A stretch of DNA of 64,000 nucleotides from an uncultured Poribacteria bacterium (GTDB lineage Bacteria > Poribacteria > WGA-4E > WGA-3G): assembly GCA_951828515.1 (NCBI GenBank), contig OX639992.1, positions 62,001-126,000 of the forward strand. The letters are read 5' to 3'. Shown piece after piece: positions 14,983 to 37,801 of this stretch; position 1 is the first letter of the stretch, and the number at the start of each line of letters is the position of its first letter. The notes beneath the pieces were generated by a model, which was given only the letters and a program-made list of their open reading frames with translations, did not search any database and was not told where the DNA came from. A program made the translations under genes and the position numbers.

Positions 14983-15264
14983 TTACCGTCGTGCTTTAAG
15001 GCTACCCCAAGTCGTGGCGAGTTTATCTGCCGGTTCCACTGACAGAAATTCTCCGTCCATGACTTCTTTAATTTCATTTTCGGATAACGCGCGAGCGAAT
15101 ATATAGAATTCGTCCATCAACCCATCGAACCACCGACTGTTCTTATGGTGTCCGATTTCGGCTTGGACTCCCCAATTGTCGGAGAGTTCGCCGTTCCCTT
15201 TCGCCTCATGCGTCATTTTCCCATCAATGTATGTTTTCGCGTCACCGCTCTTGCTACGGAATTT
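14983..15264 (-). pseudogene. LamG-domain protein remnant (C-terminal part only)
   Basis: The minus strand is open for about 93 codons from an in-frame stop at 15265-15267, without a proper start. The reading runs SGDAKTYIDGKMTHEAKGNG, then GLMDEFYIFARALSENEIKE, typical of the last strands of a LamG/concanavalin-like domain, and ends KLATTWGSLKARR. The intact LamG gene at 33231-33998 has the same order (KIYIDGK, GVIDEVTVWDRALSEDDIK, KLATTWASVKASH) but about 160 more N-terminal residues and a signal peptide. The missing front half abuts a miniature element at 15311-15519. Confidence 0.75.
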
Positions 15265-15310
15265 TTAATTCGCGAACCCCATAGACCATGACTGTCACAC
15301 ATGTTAATAT

Positions 15311-15519
15311 ATAACGTGAGTTTGACATAAGCGTATCGTTGGAAACCTGCCTCATTTTTATAGGGGCCGCGGTGGATTGTCGGGTTTCGCTGTGTTTATT
15401 TTTCTGAATGTGTCCTGAAAAAGGAGACGTTTGTGGTGAAACTGAAGGTTTCTGGGACCTTCATCGCTCTACCCGACCTACGGGGTCCCTTGCAATTTTT
15501 ATTATCAAACTCACGTTAT
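15311..15519. repeat. ACGTGAGTTTGA-type miniature inverted-repeat element
   Basis: Perfect 15-bp terminal inverted repeats (ATAACGTGAGTTTGA and its complement) enclose about 180 bp without coding sequence. A relative at 35372-35575 shares the interior and the right end; single ends occur near 33095 and 62113. The remaining 15520-15771 gap contains a REP-like hairpin and the promoter of the next gene. Confidence 0.75.
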
Positions 15520-15631
15520 ATAGTCAATGTGTTCACTTACTATGGGAGATTTTAGAGCCACTTAGATGTCCTAAAGAAGCGAGGTTAGATGAAGTTTAAG
15601 AAAATATTTCGGTAATTCCATAACTATATCC

Positions 15632-15658
15632 GGTGCGGTTAGGAAACCGCACCTACCG
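15632..15658. repeat. REP-like hairpin (GGTGCGGTT stem)
   Basis: Stem GGTGCGGTT / AACCGCACC with an AGGA tetraloop followed by TACC, giving GTAG at the 5' foot on the other strand. Related arms are at 29452-29475 and 39511-39532. Confidence 0.65.
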
Positions 15659-15724
15659 GACTCAGGGGATTAAAACGTAGAGAAAAGGGAAAACTAAATA
15701 GCCCCATCTGTTTTTAATGCTCCG

Positions 15725-15753
15725 TTGACAATTTCCCATATTCTCTATATAAT
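15725..15753 (+). promoter_or_regulatory. Consensus sigma70 promoter
   Basis: Perfect TTGACA and TATAAT hexamers separated by 17 bases. Transcription should begin near 15760, about 12 bases before the ATG of the next gene, so the leader is very short. Confidence 0.85.
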
Positions 15754-15771
15754 GAAGATGGGAAACCAAAA

Positions 15772-17730
15772 ATGTCAAACAACTTTCATAGAGCGAGTTT
15801 TGGCTCTCAAACTTCGCCAAAAGTCAGCTTCCGCGCTGTCCTACTCGCGCTCCTCATCACCATCCCGAACTCCTACTGGCTCATGATTAACTGGGGTCCC
15901 AGCGGTTATGGCACAGGTCAGAGTTTCCCGACTGTCTCCACCGTTTACTTCAACGTCATTTTTGTGGTGCTAATCTTGATGGCAGTAAATCCTTTGCTGC
16001 GAGCCATTGGGAAAAATGCAAGCCTTACCGATGCAGAATTGATGGTGATCTACCTACTCGTATCCATCGCTTCTTCCATCGCTGGACACGACACACTCCA
16101 GATATTGTGGCCCTTGCTCACTTATCCCATCTGGTTCGCGAGTCCTGAGAATGAATGGGGAGAACTGTTCCATCGGCACATGCCGGATTGGCTGACCATC
16201 AAAGAACGGAACGCGCTGGCAACTTTTTATCAAGGGGACGACTCCCTCCACACAGTCCAACATTTAGAACTCTGGATGCCTCCTGTGCTCTGGTGGTCGG
16301 CCCTGATCATTGTGCTAACGTGTATGATGCTCTGCATCACAATCCTGATTCGACACCAATGGGTGAACCACGAAAAACTCAGCTACCCGGTCATTCAAAT
16401 CCCGCTGCATTTGACGGAAAATGGGGGACGCGTCCTCCTGAGCAATCGGCTATTTCTGCTGGGTGCTGTGCTTGCAGGCGGGATAAACCTCCTCAATGGG
16501 CTTCATTTTCTATTCCCTGTTGTGCCTGGACTGGGTGGAAGCCTCCACAACTTAGGACAGTATTTCCAGACAAAACCCCTGAACGCCATTGGCAATCTCC
16601 CCTTCGCCGTCTACCCATTTGCTATCGGGATGAGTTTCTTTATTCCGTTGGAACTCTCGTTCTCTATCTGGTTTTTCTATCTCTTTCACAAAATGACGCG
16701 TGTATGGGGCACGATGGCAGGCATCGGCCATTTACCGGGATTCCCATTCCTCGATGCGCAATCGTTCGGTGCGTGGTTCTGCTTAGGGCTCTCCGCGATA
16801 TGGCTCACCCGAAAGTTTATCGTGCGACAGGTGAAAAACGCTTTTCGCGGCGGTAATGGAGAACCAGACACAATGGATACACCTTCAGCACACACCCGAT
16901 ACGCGATTATCGGGTTAATACTCGGCGGCATCTTTATCCTTGTGTTCTTCAAGAGTACAGGCACACCGATCTTCAGTATTCTCGGCTACTTTACACTTTT
17001 CTTTGCGTTAGCCATCGCTATTACCCGTATTCGTGCTGAAGTCGGACCCCCCGCGCACGATGTGCCGTGGCGACCGGACAAGGTACTCGTCTCCTTTCTC
17101 GGTACCCGTCGCATTGGTGCAGAGGGATTAACCACGTTTAGTATGTTCCACGGTTTCAACCGGTCCTATCGCTCCCATCCGATGCCGATTATGTTGGAGG
17201 GTTTCAAGGTAGCACAGGTCCGTGGACTGTCGCATAATCGCTTTATCGTTGCCATCATCTTGGTGACGATTGTCGGCACGATTTCATCAGCGTGGGCATA
17301 CTATGCACAAGGCTATCATTACGGGGGGGCAGTCTATGGTGAACAGGCGCAATGCCGCTGGACCTATGAGCAGCTGAAGCAGTGGCTCATTAACCCACAA
17401 TCCATAGATGTCGGTGCGGTTTCCGCTTCTGGTGGCGCGATTGCCTTGACAACGCTCCTGATGATACTACGCCGCCGCTTCATCTGGTGGCCCTTTCATC
17501 CTGCAGGCTACGCCTTATCACTGAGTTTTTGGAATACGAGTTGGTATTGGTTCTCGATCTTCTTATCGTGGGGGATAAAAGCGATTCTCTTCCAGACGGG
17601 AGGACTCCGCACCTATCGTCGTGCGATGCCGTTCTTCATCGGTTTAGTCATTGGCGAGTTTCTGCTTGGTGCTATCTGGACCCTAATCGGTATCGCCTTA
17701 GAACGCCCAATGTATCGGTTCATGTTTTAA
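15772..17730 (+). CDS. DUF6785-like polytopic membrane protein
   Basis: A 652-residue integral membrane protein with roughly 13-14 hydrophobic segments, starting near residue 20 (FRAVLLALLITIPNSYWLMI). Large loops contain motifs such as HEKLSYPVIQIPLHL, RAEVGPPAHDVPWRPD and RRRFIWWPFHPAGYALS. This pattern matches DUF6785/DUF6784 proteins, distantly reminiscent of oligopeptide (OPT-type) transporters; the family assignment is from memory. No substrate is known. Expressed from a consensus promoter directly upstream; the next gene (a sugar isomerase) is co-directional but 187 bases away. Confidence 0.7.
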   Translation: MSNNFHRASFGSQTSPKVSFRAVLLALLITIPNSYWLMINWGPSGYGTGQSFPTVSTVYFNVIFVVLILMAVNPLLRAIGKNASLTDAELMVIYLLVSIASSIAGHDTLQILWPLLTYPIWFASPENEWGELFHRHMPDWLTIKERNALATFYQGDDSLHTVQHLELWMPPVLWWSALIIVLTCMMLCITILIRHQWVNHEKLSYPVIQIPLHLTENGGRVLLSNRLFLLGAVLAGGINLLNGLHFLFPVVPGLGGSLHNLGQYFQTKPLNAIGNLPFAVYPFAIGMSFFIPLELSFSIWFFYLFHKMTRVWGTMAGIGHLPGFPFLDAQSFGAWFCLGLSAIWLTRKFIVRQVKNAFRGGNGEPDTMDTPSAHTRYAIIGLILGGIFILVFFKSTGTPIFSILGYFTLFFALAIAITRIRAEVGPPAHDVPWRPDKVLVSFLGTRRIGAEGLTTFSMFHGFNRSYRSHPMPIMLEGFKVAQVRGLSHNRFIVAIILVTIVGTISSAWAYYAQGYHYGGAVYGEQAQCRWTYEQLKQWLINPQSIDVGAVSASGGAIALTTLLMILRRRFIWWPFHPAGYALSLSFWNTSWYWFSIFLSWGIKAILFQTGGLRTYRRAMPFFIGLVIGEFLLGAIWTLIGIALERPMYRFMF

Positions 17731-17917
17731 TTTTTCCTTGCGGGTAAATAGCGTGAGTTTGGGCTTTAAAGTCCCTTTCTCGAATCCGCTCTCCATTTCA
17801 TTACGAGCTACGTTTTCTGGACTATGTCTATAGAAAATGGTATATTCAAATAACCACACTTTCTTCGGAAACCTGCTATGTCTATAGAACGTCTAAACCA
17901 CCAAAGGAAAACACACA

Positions 17918-18748
17918 ATGAAACTTAGTTGCCTTCCCGTCTCGCTTTACGATGACATCTTCACAGGAAAAAGCACCGTCGCCGATTGGATTCAGCTCGG
18001 TGCAGGATTAGGACTGGACGCAGTCGATTTCAGTATCAAATTCTTCCCAAAACGCGATGCAGAAACGATAAAAAACACACGCGCCGTCCTCGAAAAGTCC
18101 AATATAGAACCGTGTATGCTCGCCTGTTATTGCGACTTCACACATCCCGACGCAGGACAACGCGCACAAGAGTTATCCGATCTGAAAGCGGACATCGGAC
18201 TGGCAAAAGCATTAGGCGTAAAGTTCATTCGGGTGACAGCAGGACAAAACCATCCCGGCACCGAACGCGAAGTAGGTGTGCGTTGGGTGACAGACGGATT
18301 CCGTCGCGCCCTTGACGCAGCAGAGAAACACGGTATCACGCTCGCATACGAGAATCATACCAAAGGCGCGCCTTGGGATTACTGGGATTTCTCGCAACCC
18401 ACAGAAATTTTCTTAGAAATCTTAGATGCGCTTGCCGATACACCTCTCGGTGTCTGTTTCGATACCGCAAATCCGCTCGTACTGGGTGAAGATGTACTCG
18501 CACTTTTGGATAAAGTTATCCACCGGATCGTCGTGCTGCATATCTTCGACCTGCGGGCAGTTAGGGTGTTTGAACCCGTCCGCGTCGGCACTGGTGCCTC
18601 ACCGATTCCACAAATCTTTTCGCGCGTGAGACAAACAGGCTACGACGGTTGGCTCAGCATCGAAGAAGCCAGTCGTTCAGGACAGAAAGGATTTGAAAAG
18701 TCAATCGCATACGTTCAAAACACTTGGGAACAGGCATCACCCGCGTGA
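17918..18748 (+). CDS. Sugar phosphate isomerase/epimerase-like TIM barrel
   Basis: A 276-residue protein of the xylose-isomerase-like (AP endonuclease 2) barrel family. The metal/substrate set is visible at the ends of strands: E145 (LAYENH), D182 (VCFDTAN), H208 (VLHIFD) and E249 (LSIEE). Such enzymes isomerise or epimerise free or phosphorylated sugars and often sit next to Gfo/Idh/MocA genes; the actual substrate cannot be told. AAAGGAAA lies upstream of the ATG. Its 3' end overlaps the convergent PhyH gene by 12 bases. Confidence 0.8.
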   Translation: MKLSCLPVSLYDDIFTGKSTVADWIQLGAGLGLDAVDFSIKFFPKRDAETIKNTRAVLEKSNIEPCMLACYCDFTHPDAGQRAQELSDLKADIGLAKALGVKFIRVTAGQNHPGTEREVGVRWVTDGFRRALDAAEKHGITLAYENHTKGAPWDYWDFSQPTEIFLEILDALADTPLGVCFDTANPLVLGEDVLALLDKVIHRIVVLHIFDLRAVRVFEPVRVGTGASPIPQIFSRVRQTGYDGWLSIEEASRSGQKGFEKSIAYVQNTWEQASPA

Positions 18749-19588
18749 CGGCTCATCCATCCGCTCTTGTGCTTGGCGCGTGAGTTCAGCGAGATGCCCA
18801 TCGTTTGCCCGCACCTGTTCAAGATGTACCCACCGTTCAGGTGTCGCTGTACCTATCATCTTCTCGCCATACTTCCGATCAATCCAGAAACGTGCAGATC
18901 CAGCGATATAGGCTTGCAACTTATCGAGTTTATCGTCAGGATAGCGTTGACAGAGATTCATCGTAAACATACGTCGCCGCGTGCCACCACCGTACGCCGC
19001 ATGCTTGGTGTTGTGGTTAAACAGGACCAGATCGCCGGGGGTTGTCTCAAAGACCGTCGCCGGGACATCTTTCCCGTGTATTTCCCAAAAGTCCTGGCTC
19101 TTCCCAGCCTGTTTAGAGAGTGCATCGGCATAGTTATCGCCGAAGAGATGACTTCCCGGAATCACGCGAAGCGCGCCAGTATCGCGAGTCAAGGGGTCGA
19201 GGTAGAACGCAATCTTGATGTGCATCGGATCTTCCAGTTTATGCCCACCATCCGAGTGCCACCCGGTATCGCCGACGTAGAAATTGCCGTCGCTGCCCAT
19301 GTAGTTGAAATCATCACCGATCAACGCCTTCGCGATCCCTAAAATCCTTGGATCATCCAATAGTGATGCCAACTCCTCACTCTGATCGATGAATGGCACA
19401 ATGCAGGAACGTGCAGTGCCTTCATGCGGTTTACCGTTATGTCCGCCGCCTCTCTCTTCCCAGACCCCTTCAAAAGCGTCTTGGATTGCGGTAATCCGAT
19501 CCGCCATCAGTTGCGGGAAACTGAGATAACCGAACGTCTTGAAAAAATTCATCTCCGATTCGGTGATACTGAAATCGTGCTGATTCAT
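18737..19588 (-). CDS. Phytanoyl-CoA dioxygenase (PhyH)-family oxygenase
   Basis: A 283-residue Fe(II)/2-oxoglutarate-dependent oxygenase. The iron facial triad is evident: H111-x-D113 (GWHSDGG) and distal H196 (NHNTKHAAYGG), with R205 placed to bind 2-oxoglutarate. RVIPGSHLFGDN is the typical PhyH strand. These enzymes hydroxylate small molecules; substrate unknown. There is no normal Shine-Dalgarno; a -10-like AATAAT is six bases before the ATG. Its 3' end overlaps the convergent isomerase gene. Confidence 0.82.
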   Translation of the reverse strand: MNQHDFSITESEMNFFKTFGYLSFPQLMADRITAIQDAFEGVWEERGGGHNGKPHEGTARSCIVPFIDQSEELASLLDDPRILGIAKALIGDDFNYMGSDGNFYVGDTGWHSDGGHKLEDPMHIKIAFYLDPLTRDTGALRVIPGSHLFGDNYADALSKQAGKSQDFWEIHGKDVPATVFETTPGDLVLFNHNTKHAAYGGGTRRRMFTMNLCQRYPDDKLDKLQAYIAGSARFWIDRKYGEKMIGTATPERWVHLEQVRANDGHLAELTRQAQERMDEPSRG

Positions 19589-19594
19589 TTTTTA

Positions 19595-19600
19595 ATTATT
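19595..19600 (-). promoter_or_regulatory. -10-like element six bases before the PhyH start
   Basis: On the minus strand AATAAT is followed by TAAAAA and then ATG. The same geometry is seen before the genes starting at 27038 and 28861. The stretch upstream, to about 19760, repeats the accttgcggttcgg and ccattacattac blocks. From there to 19906 no feature was recognised. Confidence 0.5.
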
Positions 19601-19906
19601 CCTTTTTTAATTTTACCTTGCGGTTCGGTAAGGTGAATTGAATGAACGACGATTCTCCCCGTAGAATCAAGAAACGCCCAAGCAAAAACCCTTCCATTAC
19701 ATTACAGGCTCCTGATATCGATCAAAAACCTATCCGTAATGTAATGGAGAGCAACTCAGAAGTACATAGTTCAAAACCTTAACGCCAGAAAATCCGGCAC
19801 AAGCTTCTATAGGAAACCTACGGGACAATACTGATACGCTATGATAGCATATTTTTCCATAATTTTGCAATCCGAACTACAAATAACATCAGGACTATTT
19901 ATAGCA

Positions 19907-20024
19907 GGACTTACGCAAAATCAGCTTCCGTGCCAAAATTGACGAGATATTCCGCAAGAAGGCGCAATGAATTGCGCTACTACGAACCGAAGACCGCGGG
20001 AAAATGGGAAAACTGCGTAAGTCC
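19907..20024. repeat. GGACTTACGCA-type miniature element, copy 1
   Basis: Terminal inverted repeats GGACTTACGCA and its complement enclose about 96 bp. Inside is a REP-like hairpin GCGCAA / TTGCGC with a TGAA loop followed by TACTACGAACC. Other copies: 29238-29356, 34061-34178, 41541-41659. It abuts a TATAGTAAA element at 20027. Confidence 0.8.
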
Positions 20025-20026
20025 TA

Positions 20027-20142
20027 TATAGTAAAGTTTAGAATTAATTAGACACTCTAAAGAGGCGAGGTTGGAAACCTCGCCAGCGGCGGGGTGGGTG
20101 TTTCGTTGCGCAACTGTCTACATATTTTTCGACTTTACTATA
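20027..20142. repeat. TATAGTAAA-type miniature element, copy 3
   Basis: Inverted ends tatagtaaag and ctttactata, with the central GGCGAGGTT / AACCTCGCC hairpin. It lies two bases from the preceding element, forming a compound block. Confidence 0.8.
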
Positions 20143-20171
20143 GTTTTCGGTTTCGATCTTGGTTTTCGTTT

Positions 20172-20433
20172 GCGGAGGTGTCGGGAATCGGAGTTCCCTC
20201 CTACAGGAATAGCAAGCGGAGGCGTCGGGAATCGGAGTTCCCTCCTACAGGAATAGCAAGCGGAGGCGTCGGGAATCGGAGTTCCCTCCTACAGGAATAG
20301 CAAGCGGAGGCGTCGGGAATCGGAGTTCCCTCCTACAGGAATAGCAAGCGGAGGCGTCGGGAATCGGAGTTCCCTCCTACAGGAATAGCAAGCGGAGGCG
20401 TCGGGAATCGGAGTTCCCTCCTACAGGAATAGC
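20172..20433. repeat. Six-copy 44-bp tandem array of a REP-like hairpin
   Basis: Six almost identical 44-bp units follow each other; the last loses its end at about 20433. Each unit carries the GGGAAT / GTTCCC hairpin (CGGA loop) and TCCTACAG. There are no unique spacers, so this is not CRISPR. A partly decayed seventh unit interrupted by extra bases lies at 20455-20515. Long reading frames through the array are by-products of the period. Confidence 0.9.
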
Positions 20434-20540
20434 CGTCAGCCGTCAGCGGGCAGCAAGCGTCGGGAATCGGGGTGTTTTTGCTTGGGTGCTTCCCTCCGTA
20501 TACAGGAGAACTGAATGGCTCTGCATATCCGAAACAAAAC

Positions 20541-20569
20541 TTGCGAAACTCCCAAATTAATGTTAATAT
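20541..20569 (+). promoter_or_regulatory. Probable promoter of the ABC-2 permease gene
   Basis: TTGCGA, a 17-base spacer and TAATAT lie 34 bases upstream of the ATG at 20603. Confidence 0.5.
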
Positions 20570-20602
20570 TATCTAAGATTAACATCCATTGAAAGGTTAG
20601 AG

Positions 20603-21397
20603 ATGGCTCTCAACACAAATTCTTTTCCCGCCTACTATTTACTCTTTAAAGTAACATTCCGCCAGATGTTTTGGAGTCGACGAACCGTCCTGATTCTACT
20701 CGGATGTCTGCTATCACTTGCCATAGCACTCGCATTTCGGTTCATAGCACGAGGGGGCGGAAGTGTCAATCGGTTCATCCCACAGATAACGTTGGCACTT
20801 TATGGACTCTTGGTGAACTTATCGGCAATTTTCTATGGCACCGCAATCATCTCAGATGAAATCGATGGAAAAGGCTTGACGTATCTTCAGATGCGTCCGC
20901 TCCACAAATCGACGATTCTCCTGAGTAAATTCGCGGCGTACCTCGTCGGGACTGTCGTACTTATCGGAACATCTCACCTGATTCTGACGGGTATTATGAT
21001 AACACATCCGAAACTACAGAACGGCGTGTTTTTTCAGTTGGGTATGAGTTTGCGCTACATCGCCTCAATGGCATTGGCACTGTTAGTCTACGGGGCACTC
21101 GCTGCAGTTCTGGCAGTCAAATTCAAGAATCCAGTACTGTGGGGACTGCTATTTGTGACGGGGTGGGAAAATATTGCCGCAAGTCCTGTGATGGCGATGG
21201 GAATCAAGAGACTCTCTATATCACACTATCTTTTCACGCTATTTCCAGATTATAAACTGCCACGTAGTGATCTCAATGGATTCTTAGGGACCTCACCACC
21301 ACCAGCGTGGGTAGCCCTCCTCGTAATCTTCATATTGACAGCAGTGCTGCTGTGGCTTGCCATCCGAATTTTCCGGGAACGTGAATATCTGATGTGA
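20603..21397 (+). CDS. ABC-2 type transporter permease
   Basis: A 264-residue membrane protein with six hydrophobic segments, the first at about residues 28-48 (TVLILLGCLLSLAIALAFRF). Between TM2 and TM3 it has ISDEIDGKGLTYLQMRPLHK, the permease motif in which an acidic/Gly coupling loop precedes a Thr-Leu-rich helix. It ends with a cytosolic IRIFREREYLM tail. Such permeases pair with an ATPase; none is adjacent, so the partner must be elsewhere. The convergent acetate kinase-like gene ends eight bases away. Confidence 0.8.
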   Translation: MALNTNSFPAYYLLFKVTFRQMFWSRRTVLILLGCLLSLAIALAFRFIARGGGSVNRFIPQITLALYGLLVNLSAIFYGTAIISDEIDGKGLTYLQMRPLHKSTILLSKFAAYLVGTVVLIGTSHLILTGIMITHPKLQNGVFFQLGMSLRYIASMALALLVYGALAAVLAVKFKNPVLWGLLFVTGWENIAASPVMAMGIKRLSISHYLFTLFPDYKLPRSDLNGFLGTSPPPAWVALLVIFILTAVLLWLAIRIFREREYLM

Positions 21398-21404
21398 ACG
21401 ATTT

Positions 21405-22909: not shown

Positions 22910-22995
22910 AAGACTACCTCACTTACCCGTTTTCTTTCACAAACAACCGCATTTGCATCCAAGAAGAAAAAATTTACTTGAACTATTGGCTTCAA

Positions 22996-23738: not shown

Positions 23739-23765
23739 TATTAATTATTGCTTACACATATCATA

Positions 23766-26700
23766 TCACGCTTTCGGGAGTGTGGGCAAGGTCAAACGCG
23801 GACGCTCACCGAAATTGGGGACTTCGGGCGGATTCTCCTCCATCTGGCGGAGAAGTTCTTCAATTCCTCGGTCAAGCTGCGGATCGCCTTCTGTGGCATA
23901 GTCTTGCGGACGATAATCTACTTCAATATCCGGATCAGTTCCGTAGTTCTCAACACTCCAGCCAACATCAACAAACCAGAACGAATACTCTGGTTGCGTT
24001 GTGCCACCTCTATCCACAAACGCCTGATGCGGTGAGATACCGATAACGCCACCCCATGTCCGCTTCCCGATGAGTAACCCCAACTCCATCAACTTGAAGC
24101 AGTGCGAGAAGATATCGCCATCGGAACCCGCATTCTCGTTCGTGACAGCCACCATCGGCCCCAAAACGGAAGCGTCTGGATAGGGATGTGGTGTCCCCCA
24201 CCGCGGAACGTCATATCCAATGCGTCGGCGGGACAATTTCTCTAAAAGTAGTTGCGAGACGTGCCCACCCCCATTGTAGCGGACATCGACCAGCAAAGCC
24301 GGATAACTCACTTCAGCGAGAAAACCGCGGTGAAATTCTGCATATCCGCGCTGTCCCATATCAGGAATATGGACATACCCGACTTTACCCTCCGTTTTTT
24401 CATGGACGTATCGCCGATTATCGGATACCCATTCGCGATACCGAAGTTCGCTTTCACTACGCAAAACCTTGAGCGTGACGACGCGTTCTTCACCCTCGTC
24501 CGCACTTCGGAACGTTGCTTGAACCTCCTGATTTGCGAGACTGACGAGCAGTTCACCCGGCGAAACGGTTTCGCTGACCCGCTGTCCGGCAATAGCAAGC
24601 AAAACATCGCCTTCACGGATATTAATCCCAGGGGCATTGAGTGGTGAATCCTTCGTTGCCTCCCAACCATCGCCGAGTGGGATATGTGTGATACGATACC
24701 CATTACTCTCCGCATCGTAAGCAAAATCGGCACCGAGAAACCCTTGTGCGTAATTCGGCGAACTCCGATAATCCCCACCCATCTCATAGGCATGTGAGGT
24801 ACCGAGTTCTCCCTGCATCTCCCACATCAAGTCCGAAAATTCACCACGCGTTGCGATCCGTTCAAGGAGCGGCAGATAGCGTTGATAGACATGCTCCCAA
24901 TCCACACCAGACATATCCTCTGTCCAGAAATATTCCCGCTGAAGCCGCCATGCCTCGCGATACATCTGACGCCACTCGGCTGTCGGAACGATGGAGGCTT
25001 TAACACGACTCAGATCAATCCAACCCGTCTGTCGACTCGGACCCCCTCTACGCTCGGACTTGGAATCACTATCAGCCTTTTTGCCCGCCTTGATAACCCG
25101 CAACCGATTTCCCGTGGAATAGACGAGTGTTTTCGCATCACGCGAGAGTTGAAAATCATTAATGCCAGAGACAAGCGACTCCTTTTTCTGCTCCTTGAAG
25201 TCGTAAGCATGAAGGACACCTCTCGGTCTGCTATCCTCATCGTCTGGAGGTGTATCTTGCATCGGAAACGCCGTAAAAATCGCTTTACCTTCAATACCGG
25301 CGATCTGCCCATAACGTCCGTGCGGGTACGGAAACGCGACGACGCGCTGCGTAATACCTTCCACATCTATCGTAATCAGTTTCTCCGTTTCCTGCTCAGA
25401 TTTCTCGCCAGATGCCTTATCCTCGCCGTTCTGTTCCTTCCCTTCTTCCTCCTCCTCCTCCTTATCTTCCTTCTCCTCCTCAAGCGGACGAGGTTCAGGG
25501 ATGAAAGGATTGCCCAAGATTTTTTGCAAGGTCACGAGCAACGGACGCATCGCCGTAGGAAACCCAAGATCGAAGTGGAGCGCATCATAGACCGGATTGA
25601 ACTCGCGATAGGAGAGAAAATAGAGATACTTCCCCTCCGGATCCCACGCTGGACCGAAATCGCTGAATTCTGGATCCGTAACGAACCACGTTTCACCTGT
25701 TTCAATCTTGCAGAGTTTGATTGAACGTGTGGTTTCCGTAGATGCAAAACTATACGCACACCATTTACCATCAGGCGCCCACGCGACATCTCGAATATTC
25801 TGATAATGCCCCTTGTCAAGCACCCGCATCCCTTGCGTCTCTAAATCGATGTGCAAAAGTTCAAGACGATTATTGATAAGGAGCAACCGATCCTTCTCGT
25901 CGCCTTCGGTTTGCGGAGCAACCGCGAGTTGCCGAATATGCCCGATGTCAAGGGTGTCAAGCCGAACAACGTCAGCACTGCCATCGCGTGTATGGATTTC
26001 AAGTGCCTCTTCACCCTCAGCATCGGATAATGTAACAAGGTGTTTACCGTCGTTGAGCCACTCAGTAAAGCGATAGCGTGTTCCGTTGCGCTCGCCGTGC
26101 TGGAGAACCGCGCCCTCCCAATTCGCCATTGTAAAGGGTTTCCCTCGGACGGTCACTGCCAATGCGTGCCCATCGGGTGTCGCGGCATAATCCTGTAGAT
26201 AGCGCGATGGACTGACGAACTTCCGTTGTCGTTGGGTACGCGGGCTTCGGAATTCGACCTCAACGCGGACTTCAGCATCATTCTCGATTTCATAAACGAA
26301 CAGGTCAGCTCCGGCGTGGTAGACAATACGTGTGCCATCCGTCTGAGCGGAACGGCAGTAGTAGGTATCCTGATGCGTGTGGCGTTGAATATCTTCACCC
26401 GTAGGAAGGCAAGAATAGATATTGCCGACCCCTTCATGATCAGAAATAAAATAGATACGTTCACCGATCCACATCGGTGTCGTGAAATTACTATCTACGG
26501 GTGCGAGCGGCTGAAATTGCCCATCCCCTTCCGGGTCAACCCAGAGTTGCCCCGCAGTGCCGCCGCGATAGCGTTTCCAGCGCGCCGGTTCACGGGTCAG
26601 TCTACCGACGACAACACCGCCGGTACCGCTGAAATCAATATGATTCGCGGGACCGTAGGATAGACGTTGCGGTTCGCCGCCATCGGCGCAAATTTTCCAT

Positions 26701-27038
26701 ATCCACGGATCAAATGCCAAACCGGCATTACTGGCATAGAGAATTGTCTTGCTATCGGCATCCCAGTTGACGATGGCAGCATTGCTCCCTTGATAGGTGA
26801 GCCGTTTCGCCTCGCCGCCGAGTGCGGGCATAACATAAACCTCTGCCGGTCCTTCTTCACGTCCTGTAAAGGCAAGTAGCTCACCATCGTGTGATAAGCG
26901 CGGAGAACTCGCTGTACCGAGATTCGACGTAAGCCGTCTCGCAAACCCACCTTCAACGGGAACCGTCCATAAATCATCTTCACACACAAAAACAATGGTA
27001 TCCTGACAAATTGTTGGAAATCTATAATATCCTGACAT
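23766..27038 (-). CDS. Tricorn-like serine protease
   Basis: A 1090-residue protease resembling archaeal tricorn. It has beta-propeller repeats over residues 1-680, a PDZ domain around 790-860 and a C-terminal hydrolase domain. The active site is readable: S748-H749 (ELGTSHAYE), nucleophile S972 (NENAGSDGD) and E1030 (SVENYGTDPDIEV). The 58-residue gap between the last two equals that in Thermoplasma tricorn (S965, E1023). Tricorn processes peptides made by the proteasome or other proteases. A Glu/Lys-rich insert lies at about 519-553. No signal peptide, so cytosolic. It lacks a Shine-Dalgarno; see the -10-like element at its start. Confidence 0.9.
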   Translation of the reverse strand: MSGYYRFPTICQDTIVFVCEDDLWTVPVEGGFARRLTSNLGTASSPRLSHDGELLAFTGREEGPAEVYVMPALGGEAKRLTYQGSNAAIVNWDADSKTILYASNAGLAFDPWIWKICADGGEPQRLSYGPANHIDFSGTGGVVVGRLTREPARWKRYRGGTAGQLWVDPEGDGQFQPLAPVDSNFTTPMWIGERIYFISDHEGVGNIYSCLPTGEDIQRHTHQDTYYCRSAQTDGTRIVYHAGADLFVYEIENDAEVRVEVEFRSPRTQRQRKFVSPSRYLQDYAATPDGHALAVTVRGKPFTMANWEGAVLQHGERNGTRYRFTEWLNDGKHLVTLSDAEGEEALEIHTRDGSADVVRLDTLDIGHIRQLAVAPQTEGDEKDRLLLINNRLELLHIDLETQGMRVLDKGHYQNIRDVAWAPDGKWCAYSFASTETTRSIKLCKIETGETWFVTDPEFSDFGPAWDPEGKYLYFLSYREFNPVYDALHFDLGFPTAMRPLLVTLQKILGNPFIPEPRPLEEEKEDKEEEEEEGKEQNGEDKASGEKSEQETEKLITIDVEGITQRVVAFPYPHGRYGQIAGIEGKAIFTAFPMQDTPPDDEDSRPRGVLHAYDFKEQKKESLVSGINDFQLSRDAKTLVYSTGNRLRVIKAGKKADSDSKSERRGGPSRQTGWIDLSRVKASIVPTAEWRQMYREAWRLQREYFWTEDMSGVDWEHVYQRYLPLLERIATRGEFSDLMWEMQGELGTSHAYEMGGDYRSSPNYAQGFLGADFAYDAESNGYRITHIPLGDGWEATKDSPLNAPGINIREGDVLLAIAGQRVSETVSPGELLVSLANQEVQATFRSADEGEERVVTLKVLRSESELRYREWVSDNRRYVHEKTEGKVGYVHIPDMGQRGYAEFHRGFLAEVSYPALLVDVRYNGGGHVSQLLLEKLSRRRIGYDVPRWGTPHPYPDASVLGPMVAVTNENAGSDGDIFSHCFKLMELGLLIGKRTWGGVIGISPHQAFVDRGGTTQPEYSFWFVDVGWSVENYGTDPDIEVDYRPQDYATEGDPQLDRGIEELLRQMEENPPEVPNFGERPRLTLPTLPKA

Positions 27039-27996: not shown

Positions 27997-28000
27997 GGCT

Positions 28001-30608: not shown

Positions 30609-30773
30609 AAGATTTTTAATCTTACCTTGCGGAGGAATGACATTGATTAGAGCTTTGACGGACATCCCTTAAATCTTGAGGAAACATCCAAGCAAAAACC
30701 CTGCGCCGTTGTTGCAGGCTGCGGTTGAGGAACGAAGTAGATATAATTAAAATCCTGTTTGGAGTAAGACATT

Positions 30774-31934: not shown

Positions 31935-32049
31935 GTAGCGATCAGCGATCAGCGGTCAGCAGTCAGCAAAGAGGGTTTTTGTTTATGCTTCCCGTCTTAT
32001 TACTGATTGCCGATAACCGACAGCCGACTGCCATTAAAAGGAGATAGTC
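31935..32049. repeat. GATCAGC/GTCAGC short tandem repeat
   Basis: Reads agcgatcagcgatcagcggt then cagcagtcagcaaag. An opposite-strand relative (gattgccgataaccgacagc) follows near 32009. This is the same motif pair as in the ribosomal operon gaps. The ribosome-binding site of the next gene (aaaggag) is at the end. Confidence 0.6.
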
Positions 32050-33084
32050 ATGCAAGCACCTAACTCTGAACCTTTCCGTGTCGGATTTCTGAACGTAGAT
32101 TCATATTCACACATGCCGTTGTGGGCACCGCACATCAATCCACGTCCTGGTGAGAAAGATACGCCATTCACAGGGATGCGGATCACCCACTGCTGGGACA
32201 TTGAATACGAAAAGGCGAAAGCGGTTGCTGAACCTTACGGTTGCGAAGTCGTCAAGAATTTTGACGATATGTTGGGGAAGGTAGATGGCGTGATCTCCGG
32301 TGGTTACTATAATCATCCATGGAACCACATCCTTCATGAACCGTATCTCGAAGCGGGTTTGCCGAATCTCATCAACCGTCCGTTTGCGAACTCCCTCTCG
32401 AAAGCACAGCAAATGGTTGAACTGGCACGAAAGAACGGCGCGACGATCCTTGCCCCATCGAGTCATGAGCACAACGACGCCATTTCACGTGCCAAGGCGT
32501 GGGCAAGCGATAAACAAATCATCTGCTACACAGCGACCAACTCGTTCGACGACTATCCGACGCACGGCATCCATGGTCTTTATATGGTCTGCAGAGCAGT
32601 GGCAGAAGCGGGGAATCCGGTTGTGTCCGTCGCATATCAAACGGATAGTTGGCACAGCCCGCCTGGTGTTCTCACCTTTGAACATGTTGATAGCGATGGT
32701 CGCCAATTCTACGGGACACTTCATCAAGTGGGTGGTTCGTGGGGAACAGTGCAGCTTCACACACAGGAAGCCTACGGTGGTGAGAACTTCAGAATCTACA
32801 CCGGCACGGGTTATCCGTTCGACAAGACGGAGATCTGGTTGCCGACGATTTGGGCGTTCCAGAACATGGCACTCCATAACGAAATGCCACAGACGTTTGA
32901 TCAGATTTTACACAAGACGAACGTCTTCCTTGCAGGCTGGAAATCGGTTCTGGAAAACGATGGCAAACCTGTGAAATTAACAGATGTTGCCGAAGAATGG
33001 GAAGCCCCTGCTGAACTGCCGAATCATCCCGAACACGACACGGTCTCTCTATTCGAGAAAAAGTTCGGGGACGCTTCAGTATAG
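32050..33084 (+). CDS. Gfo/Idh/MocA-like protein lacking the usual cofactor motif
   Basis: A 344-residue relative of the Gfo/Idh/MocA family. The N-terminal fold reads FRVGFLNVDSYSHMPLWAPH instead of a GxGxxG loop, and the EKP motif is replaced by INRPFANSLSKAQQMVELA. The C-terminal half (GGSWGTVQLHTQEAYGGENF) follows the alpha/beta domain. NAD binding may be weak, so it could be a binding or regulatory paralogue of the neighbour. AAAGGAG precedes the ATG. A strong convergent terminator follows. Confidence 0.75.
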   Translation: MQAPNSEPFRVGFLNVDSYSHMPLWAPHINPRPGEKDTPFTGMRITHCWDIEYEKAKAVAEPYGCEVVKNFDDMLGKVDGVISGGYYNHPWNHILHEPYLEAGLPNLINRPFANSLSKAQQMVELARKNGATILAPSSHEHNDAISRAKAWASDKQIICYTATNSFDDYPTHGIHGLYMVCRAVAEAGNPVVSVAYQTDSWHSPPGVLTFEHVDSDGRQFYGTLHQVGGSWGTVQLHTQEAYGGENFRIYTGTGYPFDKTEIWLPTIWAFQNMALHNEMPQTFDQILHKTNVFLAGWKSVLENDGKPVKLTDVAEEWEAPAELPNHPEHDTVSLFEKKFGDASV

Positions 33085-33138
33085 AACACAGGATGACGTG
33101 AGTTTGATAAAAGGCTTCTAACTGAATTGGCAAAAAAT

Positions 33139-33175
33139 AAAGTGAAGTGGCACAATTGCTGCGCCACTTCACTTT
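33139..33175. terminator. Bidirectional terminator
   Basis: A perfect 13-base stem (AAAGTGAAGTGGC / GCCACTTCACTTT) with an 11-base loop lies between convergent genes ending at 33084 and 33231. It is A-rich to the left and T-rich at the right arm, suitable for both strands. Confidence 0.85.
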
Positions 33176-33230
33176 AATACTACACGGCAAATGCGGTGGT
33201 GAAAACCGTGATTTGAACTAAGAGCGAAAT

Positions 33231-33998
33231 CTAATGCGATGCCTTGACACTTGCCCATGTGGTTGCGAGTTTACCCGCGGGATCTACAGCGAAAGCACTT
33301 AGATCTTCCATACTCTGTTTAATATCGTCTTCCGACAAAGCTCGATCCCAGACCGTGACCTCGTCAATCACACCGTTGAACTTTTGGCCTGTTGCCCCCC
33401 ATGAGCCGATCATCGTATCTCCAGCCGTTCCCAGGTACTCAATTCCAGCCTTACCTGCGTCTTCAACTGTGTCCTTGCCGTCAATGTATATCTTTCGGGA
33501 TTTGCCCTTCACATCCAACCAGAAAGTGATATGTGCCCACTTGTCAGCTTTGACTGCATTAGGGGCATCAAGGTCATTGCCATAAAACCCCATACGAACA
33601 GTGCCGCTGTTGTAGATACGGTAGTGAAGACTCGTATTTAAGGCATTAACCTGTGTCTGTGTGAAAACACACTGTTGATCTCCTCCGCTCAATGCTGGCT
33701 TGACCCACATCGTTACCGTAAAACTCTTTTCGTTGAGTTCAATATAAGGAGCCTTGACCTCACCGGCTTGATCGAACCCCAAGGCTTTCTCGAATTTACC
33801 ATCAACCCAATCAGCATCTCCGACCAGTTCTGCGTCGTTCCCATGTGGAGAAAAATCTTCTATCGCATTTCCCTTGCCTTCATTGAATGACAAATACAGC
33901 AGCAGCTCCTTATCCTTTGGATCTAACGCGGTAGCACTGAAGGGCATCAGTGCCAATCCGGCGAGGATCAAAAAGGATAGTAATATCCGATATATCAT
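33231..33998 (-). CDS. Secreted LamG-domain protein with KLATTW tail
   Basis: A 255-residue secreted protein. Residues 1-24 are a signal peptide (LLSFLILAGLALMPFSATAL). A LamG/concanavalin-like jelly roll follows: LLLYLSFNEGKGNAIEDFS, FTVTMWVKPALSGGDQQCVF, RKIYIDGK and FNGVIDEVTVWDRALSEDDI. Such domains bind glycans or proteins. The last 13 residues (KLATTWASVKASH) match the tails of the LamG remnant at 14983-15264 and the unrelated protein at 37073-37801. A start-proximal AGGAG lies upstream. Carbohydrate recognition in the nearby sugar cluster is plausible. Confidence 0.85.
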   Translation of the reverse strand: MIYRILLSFLILAGLALMPFSATALDPKDKELLLYLSFNEGKGNAIEDFSPHGNDAELVGDADWVDGKFEKALGFDQAGEVKAPYIELNEKSFTVTMWVKPALSGGDQQCVFTQTQVNALNTSLHYRIYNSGTVRMGFYGNDLDAPNAVKADKWAHITFWLDVKGKSRKIYIDGKDTVEDAGKAGIEYLGTAGDTMIGSWGATGQKFNGVIDEVTVWDRALSEDDIKQSMEDLSAFAVDPAGKLATTWASVKASH

Positions 33999-34060
33999 GA
34001 TAAACTATCTCCTCCAAGGTAGATATACGTGATGTTCCTTTAACTAATTTCATACCTATA

Positions 34061-34178
34061 GGACTTACGCAACATTGGCTTCCATGCCAAGATTGAGGGG
34101 ATATTCCCGAAGAAAGCGCAATGAATTGCGCTACTACGAACCAAAGACTGCGCGAAAACGGGTCAACTGCGTAAGTTC
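34061..34178. repeat. GGACTTACGCA-type miniature element, copy 3
   Basis: Inverted ends ggacttacgca and tgcgtaagttc, with an internal GCGCAA / TTGCGC hairpin at 34116-34131 (TGAA loop) followed by TACTACGAACC. It closely resembles the copy at 19907-20024 throughout. Confidence 0.8.
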
Positions 34179-34283
34179 TAACCTATTTAGTTTAACGCAA
34201 AAATTCGGGAATGTCAAGAGTCTTCTGTGAACGTGGCAGCACCGTTCAGTTCTCGGCTTTCTGCTCGTTTTAGATAGAATGTC

Positions 34284-34340
34284 GCGACCAGGAGGTCGCT
34301 CTTACAGAAGAAGGAATCGGGAATCGGAATTCCCTCCTAC
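34284..34340. repeat. Two adjacent REP-like hairpins with different stems
   Basis: The first has GCGACC / GGTCGC with an AGGA loop followed by TCTTACAG. The second has GGGAAT / ATTCCC with a CGGA loop followed by TCCTAC. The stems differ completely while loop and tail are kept. The remainder of the 33999-34418 gap shows nothing else but the miniature element at 34061. Confidence 0.7.
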
Positions 34341-34418
34341 GGAAGAACTGAATGCCTCTGGTGAATGTAAAGAGTATTTTTGTGGGAAAATCGTGGATAA
34401 CACATTAGCGTATCATCA

Positions 34419-35321
34419 TCAGTTCGACGTGAATTGCCGATTCCAGTCGTGATGGGACTTGGTAATACCCTCAGGATTCAACCGACTCCGAGCGATGAAA
34501 CCGGGAACATTTTCGCGACCCGTTGGCAACCCGATTTGGCTATAGCGTGTATCAACACTCCAACGGACGGTGTCGGAACGGTTTGGAAGTCCACGGTGGA
34601 CCACCCGTTCACTCGTCAGCAAAACATCCCCTGCCTCAAGTTCAGCAGTAACGACATCGCCGGGTGGCAATTCTTCATCGCTGATGCCTCTGCCACCCGT
34701 ATGCCCAGGTGTCTGATCTTGGTAGTTGTGCGCAATCAGATTGTGGCGGTGTGAACCTCGGATGACTTGCATACATCCACTCTCTTCCGTTGCCCGAACG
34801 AGCGGAAGCCATACGTTCACAACCAATGTATCACCTGCCTCTTCCGGAATGAGATACGCCAAATCTTGATGCCATGGGATAACAGTAATCGCTTGGTCGG
34901 GCAGTTTAGCACGGTAATTAAACTGCGGATGCGCAAAGATCTCCTCACCGATGAGAGCACCAACGACATCGAGTAGCGTGGGTGCCGTCCTGAGCGTGAA
35001 CATCCCGGCGGTTCGGATTTTCTGGTCTCGGAAATAGTTGCTCCAAATCCAGTTCGGGTCGGAACAAGCGTTCGAGACGCGTGCCAATCTCGTTTCAAAC
35101 GACTCGTCATTATAAGTATCTGACGGGTCAAGGATTCCTTGTTTGATTGCCGCCTGAGTTCCCTCATCAACCAACTGTGCTAACTCATCAATCAACGGTT
35201 GAAGTGCCTCATTTGGCAGCACATTTCGGACGAATAGAAAGCCATCGTCGTGAAATTGCTGCTTCTGCTGAGGTGTGAGTCCGTTCTGCTGAGGTGCTTC
35301 CGAATTGTATTGTGTAGACAT
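34419..35321 (-). CDS. Phytanoyl-CoA dioxygenase (PhyH)-family oxygenase
   Basis: A 300-residue Fe(II)/2-oxoglutarate oxygenase. Iron ligands are H151-x-D153 (IPWHQDLAY) and H242 (RVVHRGLPN), with R253 (TVRWSVD) as the likely 2-oxoglutarate anchor; CMQVIRGSHRHN is the typical PhyH strand. The ATG at 35321 (MSTQYNSE) is preferred because AGGAGG lies upstream, although the spacing is long (about 14). A longer frame from 35372 runs into repeat DNA. Substrate unknown; only about 29% of short motifs are shared with the other PhyH protein at 18737 by eye, so they are distinct enzymes. Confidence 0.83.
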   Translation of the reverse strand: MSTQYNSEAPQQNGLTPQQKQQFHDDGFLFVRNVLPNEALQPLIDELAQLVDEGTQAAIKQGILDPSDTYNDESFETRLARVSNACSDPNWIWSNYFRDQKIRTAGMFTLRTAPTLLDVVGALIGEEIFAHPQFNYRAKLPDQAITVIPWHQDLAYLIPEEAGDTLVVNVWLPLVRATEESGCMQVIRGSHRHNLIAHNYQDQTPGHTGGRGISDEELPPGDVVTAELEAGDVLLTSERVVHRGLPNRSDTVRWSVDTRYSQIGLPTGRENVPGFIARSRLNPEGITKSHHDWNRQFTSN

Positions 35322-35371
35322 CTTTTTATTTATGTCCTCCTGGGTTGCTGCGTCCGTTTGCTTCGCATACA

Positions 35372-35575
35372 CTCTAAAGTGGCGAGGTTGGGAAACCTCG
35401 CCAGCGGTGGATTGTCGGGTTTCGCTCTGTTTATTTTCTCAATGAGTCATGAAAAAAGAGGCGTTTCTGGGTAAACTGAAGGATTCTGGGGCCTTCATCG
35501 CTCTACCTGGCGGAAACACCCAAGCAAAAACACCTACAGAGTCTCTTTCAATTTCTATTATCAAACTCACGTTAT
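35372..35575. repeat. Chimeric miniature element (two families joined)
   Basis: The left part is the core of the TATAGTAAA family (acactctaaagtggcgaggt then GGAAACCTCGCC). The right part matches the interior and right end of the ACGTGAGTTTGA element at 15311-15519 (tggattgtcgggtttcgct, ccttcatcgctctacc, tcaaactcacgttat). A lone right end of the GGACTTACGCA family follows at 35629-35640. Confidence 0.65.
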
Positions 35576-35641
35576 TTTAGTTATTTAACCCCCTAAATCC
35601 CCCTTATCAGGGGGACTTTAAGAGGAAATGCGTAAGTCCTA

Positions 35642-36697
35642 TTAGAAAGACTGAATAGGAACAGCAGTACCAATCTCGCTGGATTTCATTGCGCCATCGA
35701 GCATTTGCATAAGCATCACTGCCTGCGAACCGGGATTCAGGGATTCATCCCCGTCTCGAATTGCCCGAATGAATTCCCGTGCCTGAAGCGTTATATCATC
35801 CGCCTTTTGTGGCGGAGCTTTTATGGGTTTGACCTTAACACCGTCGGGTGTCCCCACCAGTAACTTTCCACTTTCGAGCCCTGCCTTCGTGCCGTAAAGT
35901 TGAAACTCCTGCGTCTCGCTTTTGACCAGATCGCTTCCGTCTGCTGGCACTTGTCGATTTGTCGTATTCAGCGAAAACGCGACAGCAAAATGCAGGGTAC
36001 ACCCGTTCTCAAACCGTACAAACCCACACGCAGCATCATCCGCAGTGTAGGTCTGTTCAGGAGGTGCGAGGTCAGAAAATGTACAGTAGAGTCCAGCCAT
36101 AACCTCTGTCGGACGTGGATTGCCCATCATAAACCAGACGTTGTCAATGGCGTGAATACCGAGATCAAGGAGTACCCCGCCACCTTTTGCTTTATCGTGC
36201 CGCCATCCGCGTGCGGAACACCACCGTGTGCGTATCCACCGAGTCTCAGCATAATATACGTCACCGAGTTCTCCAGCCTGCACAAGCCTGCGCCCCTCCA
36301 TCAACTGAGACGTGAACCGCGATTGGCGGACAAACATATAAACAAGACCTTTGGTCTCAGCGAGCTGGGTGACCGGCATTAACTCCGTGGCATTGTTTGA
36401 AGGAGGCTTTTCGCAGAGCACATGTAATCCAAGTTGCACTGCTTCCTGCGAGACTGGCGCGTGCATCCACGTGGGAAGTCCAATGCAGACTGCGTCTAAA
36501 TCGCAGGCATCGAACATCTGACGATAATCATCGAAAACGCGGACCCCTTTAATCCCATCCAAGACCCTTTTCCTACGTGTGGCGTCTGGATCCGCTAACG
36601 CGACGAGTTCTACATTCGGCTCACCGGCGAGAATAATAGTCGTGCTACTGATTGTTCCACCGAGACCAATGATCCCAACTCTGATTACATCTTTCAT
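35642..36697 (-). CDS. Gfo/Idh/MocA-family oxidoreductase
   Basis: A 351-residue NAD(P)-dependent dehydrogenase. VGIIGLGGTISSTT is the Rossmann loop, LHVLCEKPPSNNA the EKP motif, and GGGVLLDLGIHAIDNVWFMM the catalytic segment with D-x3-H. The ATG at 36697 is chosen because GGAGG lies six bases upstream; the preceding in-frame GTG at 36703 overlaps that site. It belongs with the sugar catabolic cluster; its stop lies next to a lone miniature-element end. Confidence 0.88.
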   Translation of the reverse strand: MKDVIRVGIIGLGGTISSTTIILAGEPNVELVALADPDATRRKRVLDGIKGVRVFDDYRQMFDACDLDAVCIGLPTWMHAPVSQEAVQLGLHVLCEKPPSNNATELMPVTQLAETKGLVYMFVRQSRFTSQLMEGRRLVQAGELGDVYYAETRWIRTRWCSARGWRHDKAKGGGVLLDLGIHAIDNVWFMMGNPRPTEVMAGLYCTFSDLAPPEQTYTADDAACGFVRFENGCTLHFAVAFSLNTTNRQVPADGSDLVKSETQEFQLYGTKAGLESGKLLVGTPDGVKVKPIKAPPQKADDITLQAREFIRAIRDGDESLNPGSQAVMLMQMLDGAMKSSEIGTAVPIQSF

Positions 36698-36831
36698 CCA
36701 CACCCTCCATTTCTATCAACGCAGTTTGAACACACTACAGGCGCGATCTCCGAATCACGACACACCACTCATCAGAACGATCAGAGCCATTCAGTTTTCG
36801 ATTTTTTGGGCGTTTTCGCGGTGACATCGCG

Positions 36832-36855
36832 AGCTGGAGCTCGCTCCTACAGTAA
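36832..36855. repeat. REP-like hairpin (GCGAGC stem)
   Basis: Stem GCGAGC / GCTCGC with a TGGA loop followed by TCCTACAG. It is strikingly similar to known Pseudomonas REP sequences (GCGAGC...GCTCGCTCCTACA), by recollection. Confidence 0.7.
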
Positions 36856-36913
36856 AGATATCTCCAGCAGAAATCCGAAATTATGGGAGAACTGAATGCC
36901 TCTGTCAGAACGC

Positions 36914-36942
36914 TTGACCTTTCTTGTATATTCCTATAGAAT
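36914..36942 (+). promoter_or_regulatory. Promoter of the secreted tail-bearing protein
   Basis: TTGACC, a 17-base spacer and TAGAAT give a predicted start near 36949. The leader to the ATG at 37073 is about 125 bases, and it contains no obvious hairpin that is not part of coding-like sequence. Confidence 0.65.
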
Positions 36943-37072
36943 ATATCTGAATTCGATCTGGAATCCAATCAAATTCCGTGGAAGGATCTGCCACACACTA
37001 CGTAGTTGTAAGCAATTGTCTGCGGGTGCTTCCACACCCCTAAGCCCAATCCAAAAGGAGGAAATTCTTCTC

Positions 37073-37801
37073 ATGTATCGTCCCTTTTTTCTATCGATTT
37101 TCGTGCTACTCTTTGCTGTAAGTTCCGTCATCGCTGAGGGTGAAAAACTTGTCCTCGTTGGCTCCGGTGAACCCGATCCGAAGGACATTCCTCTTATAGA
37201 ACACCTCGAAGAGTGGGGTTATGTCGTTGAACCGCATCAGGATTTGGCAAAACACCCTGTTAACCTCGCAGATATAGATGTTGTCTTTATCTCAGAATCA
37301 ACTTCCAGTGCCAATATTTTGGACGCATACAAAGACTCAGCCGTCCCAGTCGTCAATGCCGAGACGTGGACATACGATGATATGGGATTTGCGGCAGACG
37401 GTACGTTCAACTCCGATCCAGGCGACGACCTCACTGTCATTGATCCCGAGCATCCAATCATGGAAGGTTTTAAGGGCGACATCACAGTTAGCAAACCCGC
37501 GATAGCACTCATGACGTGCAGCGGATTTGAAGGCGATGTTGACATATTAGCGGTGCGCGCCGACAACGATGATCTTGTGGCTATCTCTGTCTACGAAGAG
37601 GGGGCAAAACTACTGAAAGGGACAACGAAGGCACGCCATGTTAACATTTGGCCCCACTCTACCGGCTGGCTGCAGGTAACAGACGATGGATGGGAACTCA
37701 TCCACCGCTCAATTCTCTATGCCCTCGGTCAGATTCCATTTGATGTCGCGCCACAAGACAAACTCGCTGTCACTTGGGGACAGATTAAAGCAGCGCGTTA
37801 G
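37073..37801 (+). CDS. Secreted protein of unknown function with KLAVTW tail
   Basis: A 242-residue exported protein. Residues 1-20 are a signal peptide (FFLSIFVLLFAVSSVIAE). The mature part alternates strands and helices (LVLVGSGEPDPKDIPLIEHL, IDVVFISESTSSANILDAYK, VPVVNAETWTYDDMGFAADG) in a flavodoxin/ThuA-like alternating pattern; this fold is only suggested. It ends DKLAVTWGQIKAAR, the same tail as the LamG proteins. AAAGGAGG lies before the ATG, and its stop is 27 bases from the convergent deaminase gene. Function unknown. Confidence 0.75.
   Translation: MYRPFFLSIFVLLFAVSSVIAEGEKLVLVGSGEPDPKDIPLIEHLEEWGYVVEPHQDLAKHPVNLADIDVVFISESTSSANILDAYKDSAVPVVNAETWTYDDMGFAADGTFNSDPGDDLTVIDPEHPIMEGFKGDITVSKPAIALMTCSGFEGDVDILAVRADNDDLVAISVYEEGAKLLKGTTKARHVNIWPHSTGWLQVTDDGWELIHRSILYALGQIPFDVAPQDKLAVTWGQIKAAR

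Follow-up and report, generated by a model that had tools for sequence, protein, structure and literature searches.

Three coding sequences in the window, that is, the whole 64,000-nucleotide stretch of DNA analysed here (G000:C1:62001-126000, from the 5.85 Mb, single-contig Poribacteria genome G000), end in a similar run of residues, hereafter called the tail. Matches to the tail pattern occur at exactly three sites in the window, all of them named in the first-pass annotation, and its claim that three products share a C-terminal tail is borne out as described for each. The first product is a LamG-domain gene remnant (14983..15216, minus strand), recognized by homology to intact tailed LamG proteins. 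The homology is found in one frame only, over the last ~95-120 codons, and the frames upstream of the homologous part are broken; the signal peptide has been lost and the tail is intact. The remnant ends in LSVEPADKLATTWGSLKARR and a stop (codons 15024-14986, motif match), and its tail, VEPADKLATTWGSLKARR, located by motif position (14986..15039, minus strand), has three residues after the motif.

The second is an intact gene for an exported LamG (ConA-like) protein of 255 aa (33231..33998, minus strand), supported by an AlphaFold model and by a Laminin_G_3 match at residues 78-227 (Pfam, E 4.6e-25). Its signal peptide, residues 1-24 (33927..33998, minus strand), was assigned by heuristic and sequence inspection, and its tail, VDPAGKLATTWASVKASH (33234..33287, minus strand), by motif position and low model confidence at residues 241-255; the terminal residues are AVDPAGKLATTWASVKASH before the stop. 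The third encodes an exported non-LamG protein of 242 aa (37073..37801, plus strand), which is single copy in the genome, has a signal peptide, and for which the Pfam search returned no domain. The open reading frame (ORF) is listed from 36896; a start at 37073 yields a clear signal peptide, MYRPFFLSIFVLLFAVSSVIA, and residues 1-21 (37073..37135, plus strand) were assigned to it, again by heuristic and inspection. This protein has the tail VAPQDKLAVTWGQIKAAR (37745..37798, plus strand, by motif position) and terminates in DVAPQDKLAVTWGQIKAAR and a stop. The first-pass annotation described a tail of about 13 residues at the very C-terminus. The position stands, but conservation reaches beyond 13 residues: a Val six positions ahead of the motif Leu and a Pro or Ala four positions ahead of it are conserved as well.

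Copy number, position and distribution

A genome-wide search for the motif, as proposed in the first-pass annotation, was run with the degenerate DNA pattern L[AGST]xTWxx[FLIMV]K, the reversed pattern serving as control. This pattern matches at 120 places in G000 versus 5 for the reversed pattern, and a stricter pattern at 108 versus 0. Translation of 1.7 Mb of G000 stretches gave 122 matches, nearly all 1-8 residues before a stop (there are a few chance exceptions), including 109 full-length tailed proteins, which were taken as the reference set and from which a position-specific scoring matrix (PSSM) was built. The PSSM was applied to an unbiased contiguous 959-kb tile (16 % of G000) containing 674 non-overlapping ORFs. 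It found 43 tails, all C-terminal and at most 8 residues from the stop, from which ~260 tails per genome are extrapolated. No internal match scoring 8 or more was present in the 674 ORFs, so that the motif is not frequent in protein interiors, where its presence had been named as an objection, and no tails were found in shuffled tile ORFs. Because the pattern and PSSM counts are far above those of the reversed and shuffled controls, a chance origin is excluded. At loci of other genomes, 172 of 173 matches likewise lie 0-8 residues from the stop.

Tailed genes form 13 neighbouring pairs within 2 kb, and at one locus of another genome (L230:662-5365, minus strand) five consecutive tailed paralogues lie on one strand; tailed genes have therefore also spread via tandem duplication. 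A 50-residue ORF (G000:C1:4807607, plus strand; L123:8006-8155) encodes a signal peptide, then the tail, and little else; it seems to be a tailed propeller gene that has lost its domain by deletion. In addition, the tail is present on nine frames of 21-114 codons without a signal peptide (G000:C1 77021, 1170295, 1766421, 3088663, 3268504, 3341274, 4557335, 4620376, and 5498686), which represent either gene remnants or frameshifts in which the tail is preserved.

By the stricter pattern, the tail is present in all 84 Poribacteria genomes searched, in 3-118 copies each (reversed control, 0-2), spanning 10 families and 21 genera, and T, W, and K are nearly fixed across the phylum. In a scan of named genomes, 78 of 80 records among the matches listed are Candidatus Poribacteria. 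The other two (L197 and L217) contain real tails, but only two or three per genome. Horizontal spread to these two was considered. In the other genomes examined from their phyla (198 and 57) the tail is at chance level, and the LamG gene of L217 is 70 % identical to poribacterial LamG genes, therefore mis-binning of L217 is likely; for L197 either mis-binning or horizontal spread is possible. As far as tested, the tail is phylum-wide in Poribacteria and specific to this phylum, although it may occur rarely elsewhere.

Anatomy and carriers of the tail

The consensus is V-[ED]-[PA]-x-x-K-L-[AT]-T-T-W-[GA]-x-[LI]-K, then 1-8 variable residues and the stop. In the PSSM the order is a hydrophobic residue or Ala-Pro, V (94/109), [ED], P or A, x, [GD], K (88/109), L, [AT], T (82/109), T, W, [GA] (105/109), x, [LIV], and K; the L, T, W, and K are 109/109 because they were imposed by the search pattern. 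The PSSM matches show that Leu can be replaced by I, A, or V and that, within the core, the Thr preceding Trp is the most variable residue (VW, SW, LW, MW, RW); W and K are present in every PSSM match listed. The 1-8 residues after the final Lys are rich in R, Q, S, and A. Overall, the tail is ~20 residues, non-hydrophobic, and without a transmembrane (TM) helix.

In the LamG alignment, the tail supplies four of the nine invariant columns (K243, T247, W248, and K252). In the AlphaFold model of the 255-aa LamG protein, however, the predicted local distance difference test (pLDDT) score is below 50 at residues 241-255, with most of the LamG domain above 90. Likewise, the model of a tailed propeller, built from three sequences only, has a confident domain and a pLDDT of about 30 over its final 22 residues. 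Conservation without structure indicates recognition by another molecule, and the modelled disorder makes the tail look like a short linear motif. An amphipathic-helix reading is not supported by the moments (helical 0.29 versus strand 0.38).

Third-codon positions in the tail are near random, with entropies of 1.7-1.9 bits at fourfold and sixfold codons, and 108 of the 109 27-mers that encode it are distinct; therefore the tail is not a DNA repeat and is read as protein. In ortholog pairs below 45 % body identity, of which there are only seven, the tail is 55 % and the body 37 % identical, T and W are fixed, and L and K are nearly fixed. Close orthologs show no contrast in identity between tail and body.

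The sequences show that the tailed proteins share one build: a signal peptide of the Sec/SPI type is followed by a globular domain, which can be any of many kinds, and a variable linker leads from there to the terminal tail. The first-pass annotation had proposed a test for enrichment among signal-peptide proteins. In the tile, a signal peptide was called by heuristic in 42 of the 43 tailed proteins versus 295 of the 674 ORFs overall, and the 43rd has, on inspection, a plausible signal-peptide-like segment further in; by this measure the tail is confined to exported rather than cytosolic proteins. For a strict subset of 20 tailed proteins the enrichment has a Fisher p of 1.3e-6. The comparison is conservative because the heuristic is lenient: it allows any start codon, and TM proteins pass it too, hence the 295 ORFs. 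Among exported tile proteins, a lipobox is present in 0/42 tailed proteins and 24/253 others (p 0.03), a further TM helix after residue 40 in 0/42 and 76/253 (p 1.7e-6), and a type IX C-terminal domain (CTD) in none of the tailed proteins. The tail is carried by 42 of the 197 soluble, non-lipoprotein exported tile proteins, about a fifth.

Nor is the tail limited to LamG proteins. Pfam domains of the 109 tailed proteins include 59 Laminin_G_3 (LamG_3), 12 PD40 propellers, and 9 that are 3-keto-disaccharide hydrolase-like, the remainder including F5/8 (discoidin), CBM4_9, CBM9, lamin-tail, and other domains. After removal of the signal peptide and tail, 255 tailed proteins from G000 and other genomes form 31 BLAST clusters, some of which could still be remote homologues; the largest, with 138 of the 255, is LamG. 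The last domain before the tail therefore differs as had been claimed, LamG versus non-LamG in the window and over 31 clusters overall. All 21 LamG-family proteins in the tile carry the tail.

Probable sorting role and candidate machinery

It is probable that the tail is a C-terminal sorting or localization signal of Poribacteria. As in known signals of this kind, it is at the very C-terminus (43/43), on carriers with an export signal (42/43 by heuristic), and shared by unrelated domains; the sorting or anchoring signal suggested in the first-pass annotation is thus supported, by computation, through position, export, and non-LamG carriers. Following Sec export, the tail would be recognized by a single receptor or a small number of them, common to the carriers (many carriers to one receptor) and situated in the periplasm or at the outer membrane, and these putative receptors would deliver the tailed protein to the outer membrane, the cell surface, or the exterior. 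The tail would then substitute for the features that other exported proteins in the same cell have, namely a lipid anchor, a TM helix, or a type IX CTD. Poribacteria are abundant sponge symbionts with free-living relatives, and on this reading one previously undescribed peptide would mark about one-fifth of the soluble proteins that they export, most of these resembling lectins and carbohydrate-binding proteins. The tail would provide a ready listing of the probable surface proteome of an uncultured phylum, and the peptide could be used as a small bait for its receptor.

Candidate parts of a type IX-like system are present across the phylum. Significant matches to TIGR04189 (SprA/Sov) were found in 80/81 Poribacteria and 0/14 controls, mostly within ORFs of ~2,200 aa. 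Two complete SprA-like proteins match over 4-5 stretches (E 1.8e-43 and 2.5e-46, below the curated cut-off), and Pfam SprA_N is found in two of three SprA-like proteins tested (E 1e-5 to 1e-6). The SprA/Sov-like gene of G000 (G000:C1:2369869-2376732, minus strand, TIGR04189) adjoins a tailed LamG gene; this protein and those at three loci elsewhere (L331:6199-12999, L332:6644-13537, and L335:7676-14098, TIGR04189) are 2,140-2,300 aa. The PorV family, which includes PorQ and others, is over its cut-off in 81/81 genomes with 8-24 copies each. PorU-like C25 peptidases are matched in 81/81 (best E 1e-13 to 1e-105, none over the cut-off), and the three best matches in G000 are in ORFs that also end in TIGR04183.

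Two further observations concern these families. The window itself encodes one of the many PorV/PorQ-family barrel-like proteins of Poribacteria (9526-10806, minus strand; NF033709 E 1.1e-17, below cut-off; BamG-like E 8.5e-15). Large PorU-like C25 ORFs (1,736-2,173 aa) with a type IX CTD lie at G000:C1:2327156-2329057, 4198816-4200627, and 4923828-4925870.

C-terminal signals in the Bacteroidota are recognized by PorV and by PorP/SprF-type shuttles, which determine where the protein finally goes (PMC10202324, PMC12618676). Since known shuttles read such signals and SprA-, PorV-, and PorU-like genes are phylum-wide, a type IX-like route is the leading guess, and it is tentatively proposed that the tail may use a type IX-like outer-membrane translocon. 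More tentative still is the suggestion that one type IX-like system could read two unrelated C-terminal signals, a folded CTD (73 proteins) and a disordered peptide of ~20 residues (100-260), the latter perhaps being read by dedicated members of the expanded PorV/PorQ barrel family. If true, this would be a minimal type IX signal without known counterpart elsewhere. TIGR04183 matches have been reported on poribacterial WD40 proteins, with no Por structural genes (Kamke et al., 2014; PMC3909097). Remote SprA, PorV-family, and PorU-like genes were found here, unlike in that study, which reopens the issue, left open in 2014, of whether Poribacteria have type IX secretion.

Several points weigh against these proposals. 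Signal peptides were called by a home-made heuristic rather than SignalP, and part of the tail count is paralogue expansion, because the set is LamG-rich. Almost none of the matches to SprA and of the PorU-like matches reach the curated cut-offs, and a search with the GldM model was silent in Poribacteria and controls alike, and so had no positive control. There is no consistent adjacency of PorV-like and tailed genes in the five cases examined (1.3, 2.6, 24, 29, and 49 kb), and tail number has no obvious relation to PorV copy number (G009 has 3 tails and 13 PorV). Neither a receptor nor a dedicated processing enzyme for the tail was identified, nor a direct link to the SprA-, PorV-, or PorU-like candidates, and the tail has no resemblance to the known type IX CTDs that G000 also has.

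It is rather unlikely, though worth weighing, that the tail does not steer export and is instead a docking peptide, plugging the protein non-covalently into a periplasmic or surface scaffold or barrel in the manner of dockerins or cargo peptides. The tail is short, disordered, conserved, and C-terminal on unrelated, mostly carbohydrate-binding-like domains, a single receptor would be enough for all carriers, and the 1-8 free residues after Lys suggest that the C-terminal carboxylate itself is not read. However, a scaffold built of repeated receptor modules was not found, although no systematic search was made, and delivery fits at least equally well for proteins that have no other anchor or export signal.

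The remaining explanations are much less probable. A structural element that completes or caps the carrier fold, or an intramolecular chaperone, would suit the invariable presence of the tail on LamG-family tile proteins, but is very improbable given the unrelated folds, the variable linker, the strictly C-terminal location, and the disorder predicted on both modelled folds. Tsp/Prc- and DegP-type periplasmic proteases read C-termini, and the window includes a gene for an S41/tricorn-like protein (23766-27038). Even so, a degradation or quality-control tag for such a protease is hardly to be expected as a genome-encoded, conserved end on a fifth of soluble exported proteins, and, in contrast to known C-terminal degrons, the final residues vary freely in both identity and number.

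A covalent signal for a classical sortase or exosortase-type enzyme (LPXTG, PEP-CTERM, GlyGly-CTERM, or MYXO-CTERM type) shares the C-terminal location, the many secreted carriers, and the many-to-one logic. It is nevertheless highly doubtful, as the tail has neither a TM helix nor a tripartite build. The sortase family PF04203 was matched in 0/81 Poribacteria, whereas the positive-control genomes were matched; exosortase, rhombosortase, and myxosortase, for which no search was made, each require a TM segment, which the tail lacks. Transpeptidation of the tail by a PorU-like C25 enzyme is possible. Least probable of all is a tail without function, left by common descent of one LamG family or by a gene-ending mobile DNA repeat: LamG is the largest cluster, some tailed genes stand in tandem, and a few tails are on gene remnants, but the 31 clusters and the near fixation of T, W, and K across the phylum argue against it, and the near-random synonymous sites and differing DNA stretches (108/109) contradict it.

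Elsewhere in the window, a single 998-aa frame (55441-58437, plus strand) combines an ECF-type (extracytoplasmic function) sigma factor, with regions 2 and 4, and a BNR/sortilin-like propeller as its C-terminal part.

Comparison with known C-terminal signals

The tail is not represented by any NCBIfam or Pfam model, and the families to which tailed proteins, propellers included, have the most matches contain no sorting-signal model of NCBIfam. In the literature, searched with most subscription papers outside its reach, there is no mention of the motif and no poribacterial sorting signal besides TIGR04183. The signals of Kamke et al. (2014; PMC3909097) are likewise C-terminal on poribacterial repeat proteins, WD40 above all, but those are TIGR04183. 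G000 has 73 TIGR04183 CTDs, mostly on large proteins and of the form NYPNPFNPETWIPYQL...RKMVILQ, a second C-terminal tag that is separate from the tail: the nine CTD-like ORFs in the tile all lack the tail, and the 25 families with the most matches to the 109 tailed proteins (E up to 1) do not include TIGR04183.

Encapsulin and microcompartment cargo-loading peptides are short C-terminal peptides that appear to resemble the tail in look and length; their cargo is cytosolic, whereas the tailed proteins have Sec signal peptides. The outer-membrane beta-barrel signal is a terminal aromatic residue on the last strand. In the tail, the Trp is 5-12 residues before a free end, and the carriers are lectin-like and propeller domains, not outer-membrane barrels.

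The closest parallels are of two kinds. The PEP-CTERM, GlyGly-CTERM, and MYXO-CTERM signals are, like the tail, phylum- or clade-wide C-terminal tags found dozens of times per genome on unrelated exported proteins (PMC1569441, PMC3237569, PMC11980579). In these signals the motif is followed by a TM helix and then by a basic end, and the partner enzyme is intramembrane, whereas the tail lacks the combination of a TM helix (0/42) and a basic cluster following the motif. The type IX CTDs of type A (TIGR04183) and of types B and C are, again like the tail, C-terminal on Sec-exported proteins with unrelated domains, and are a shared signal with dedicated reading machinery. These are domains of about 70-100 residues, Ig-like (immunoglobulin-like) in type A, rather than ~20 disordered residues with an unrelated motif, although in Porphyromonas gingivalis HBP35 the last 22 CTD residues suffice for secretion of green fluorescent protein (PMC10202324). 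The tail belongs among the C-terminal sorting signals, and is set apart from the PEP-CTERM-like and type IX signals because it is short, TM-less, and disordered.

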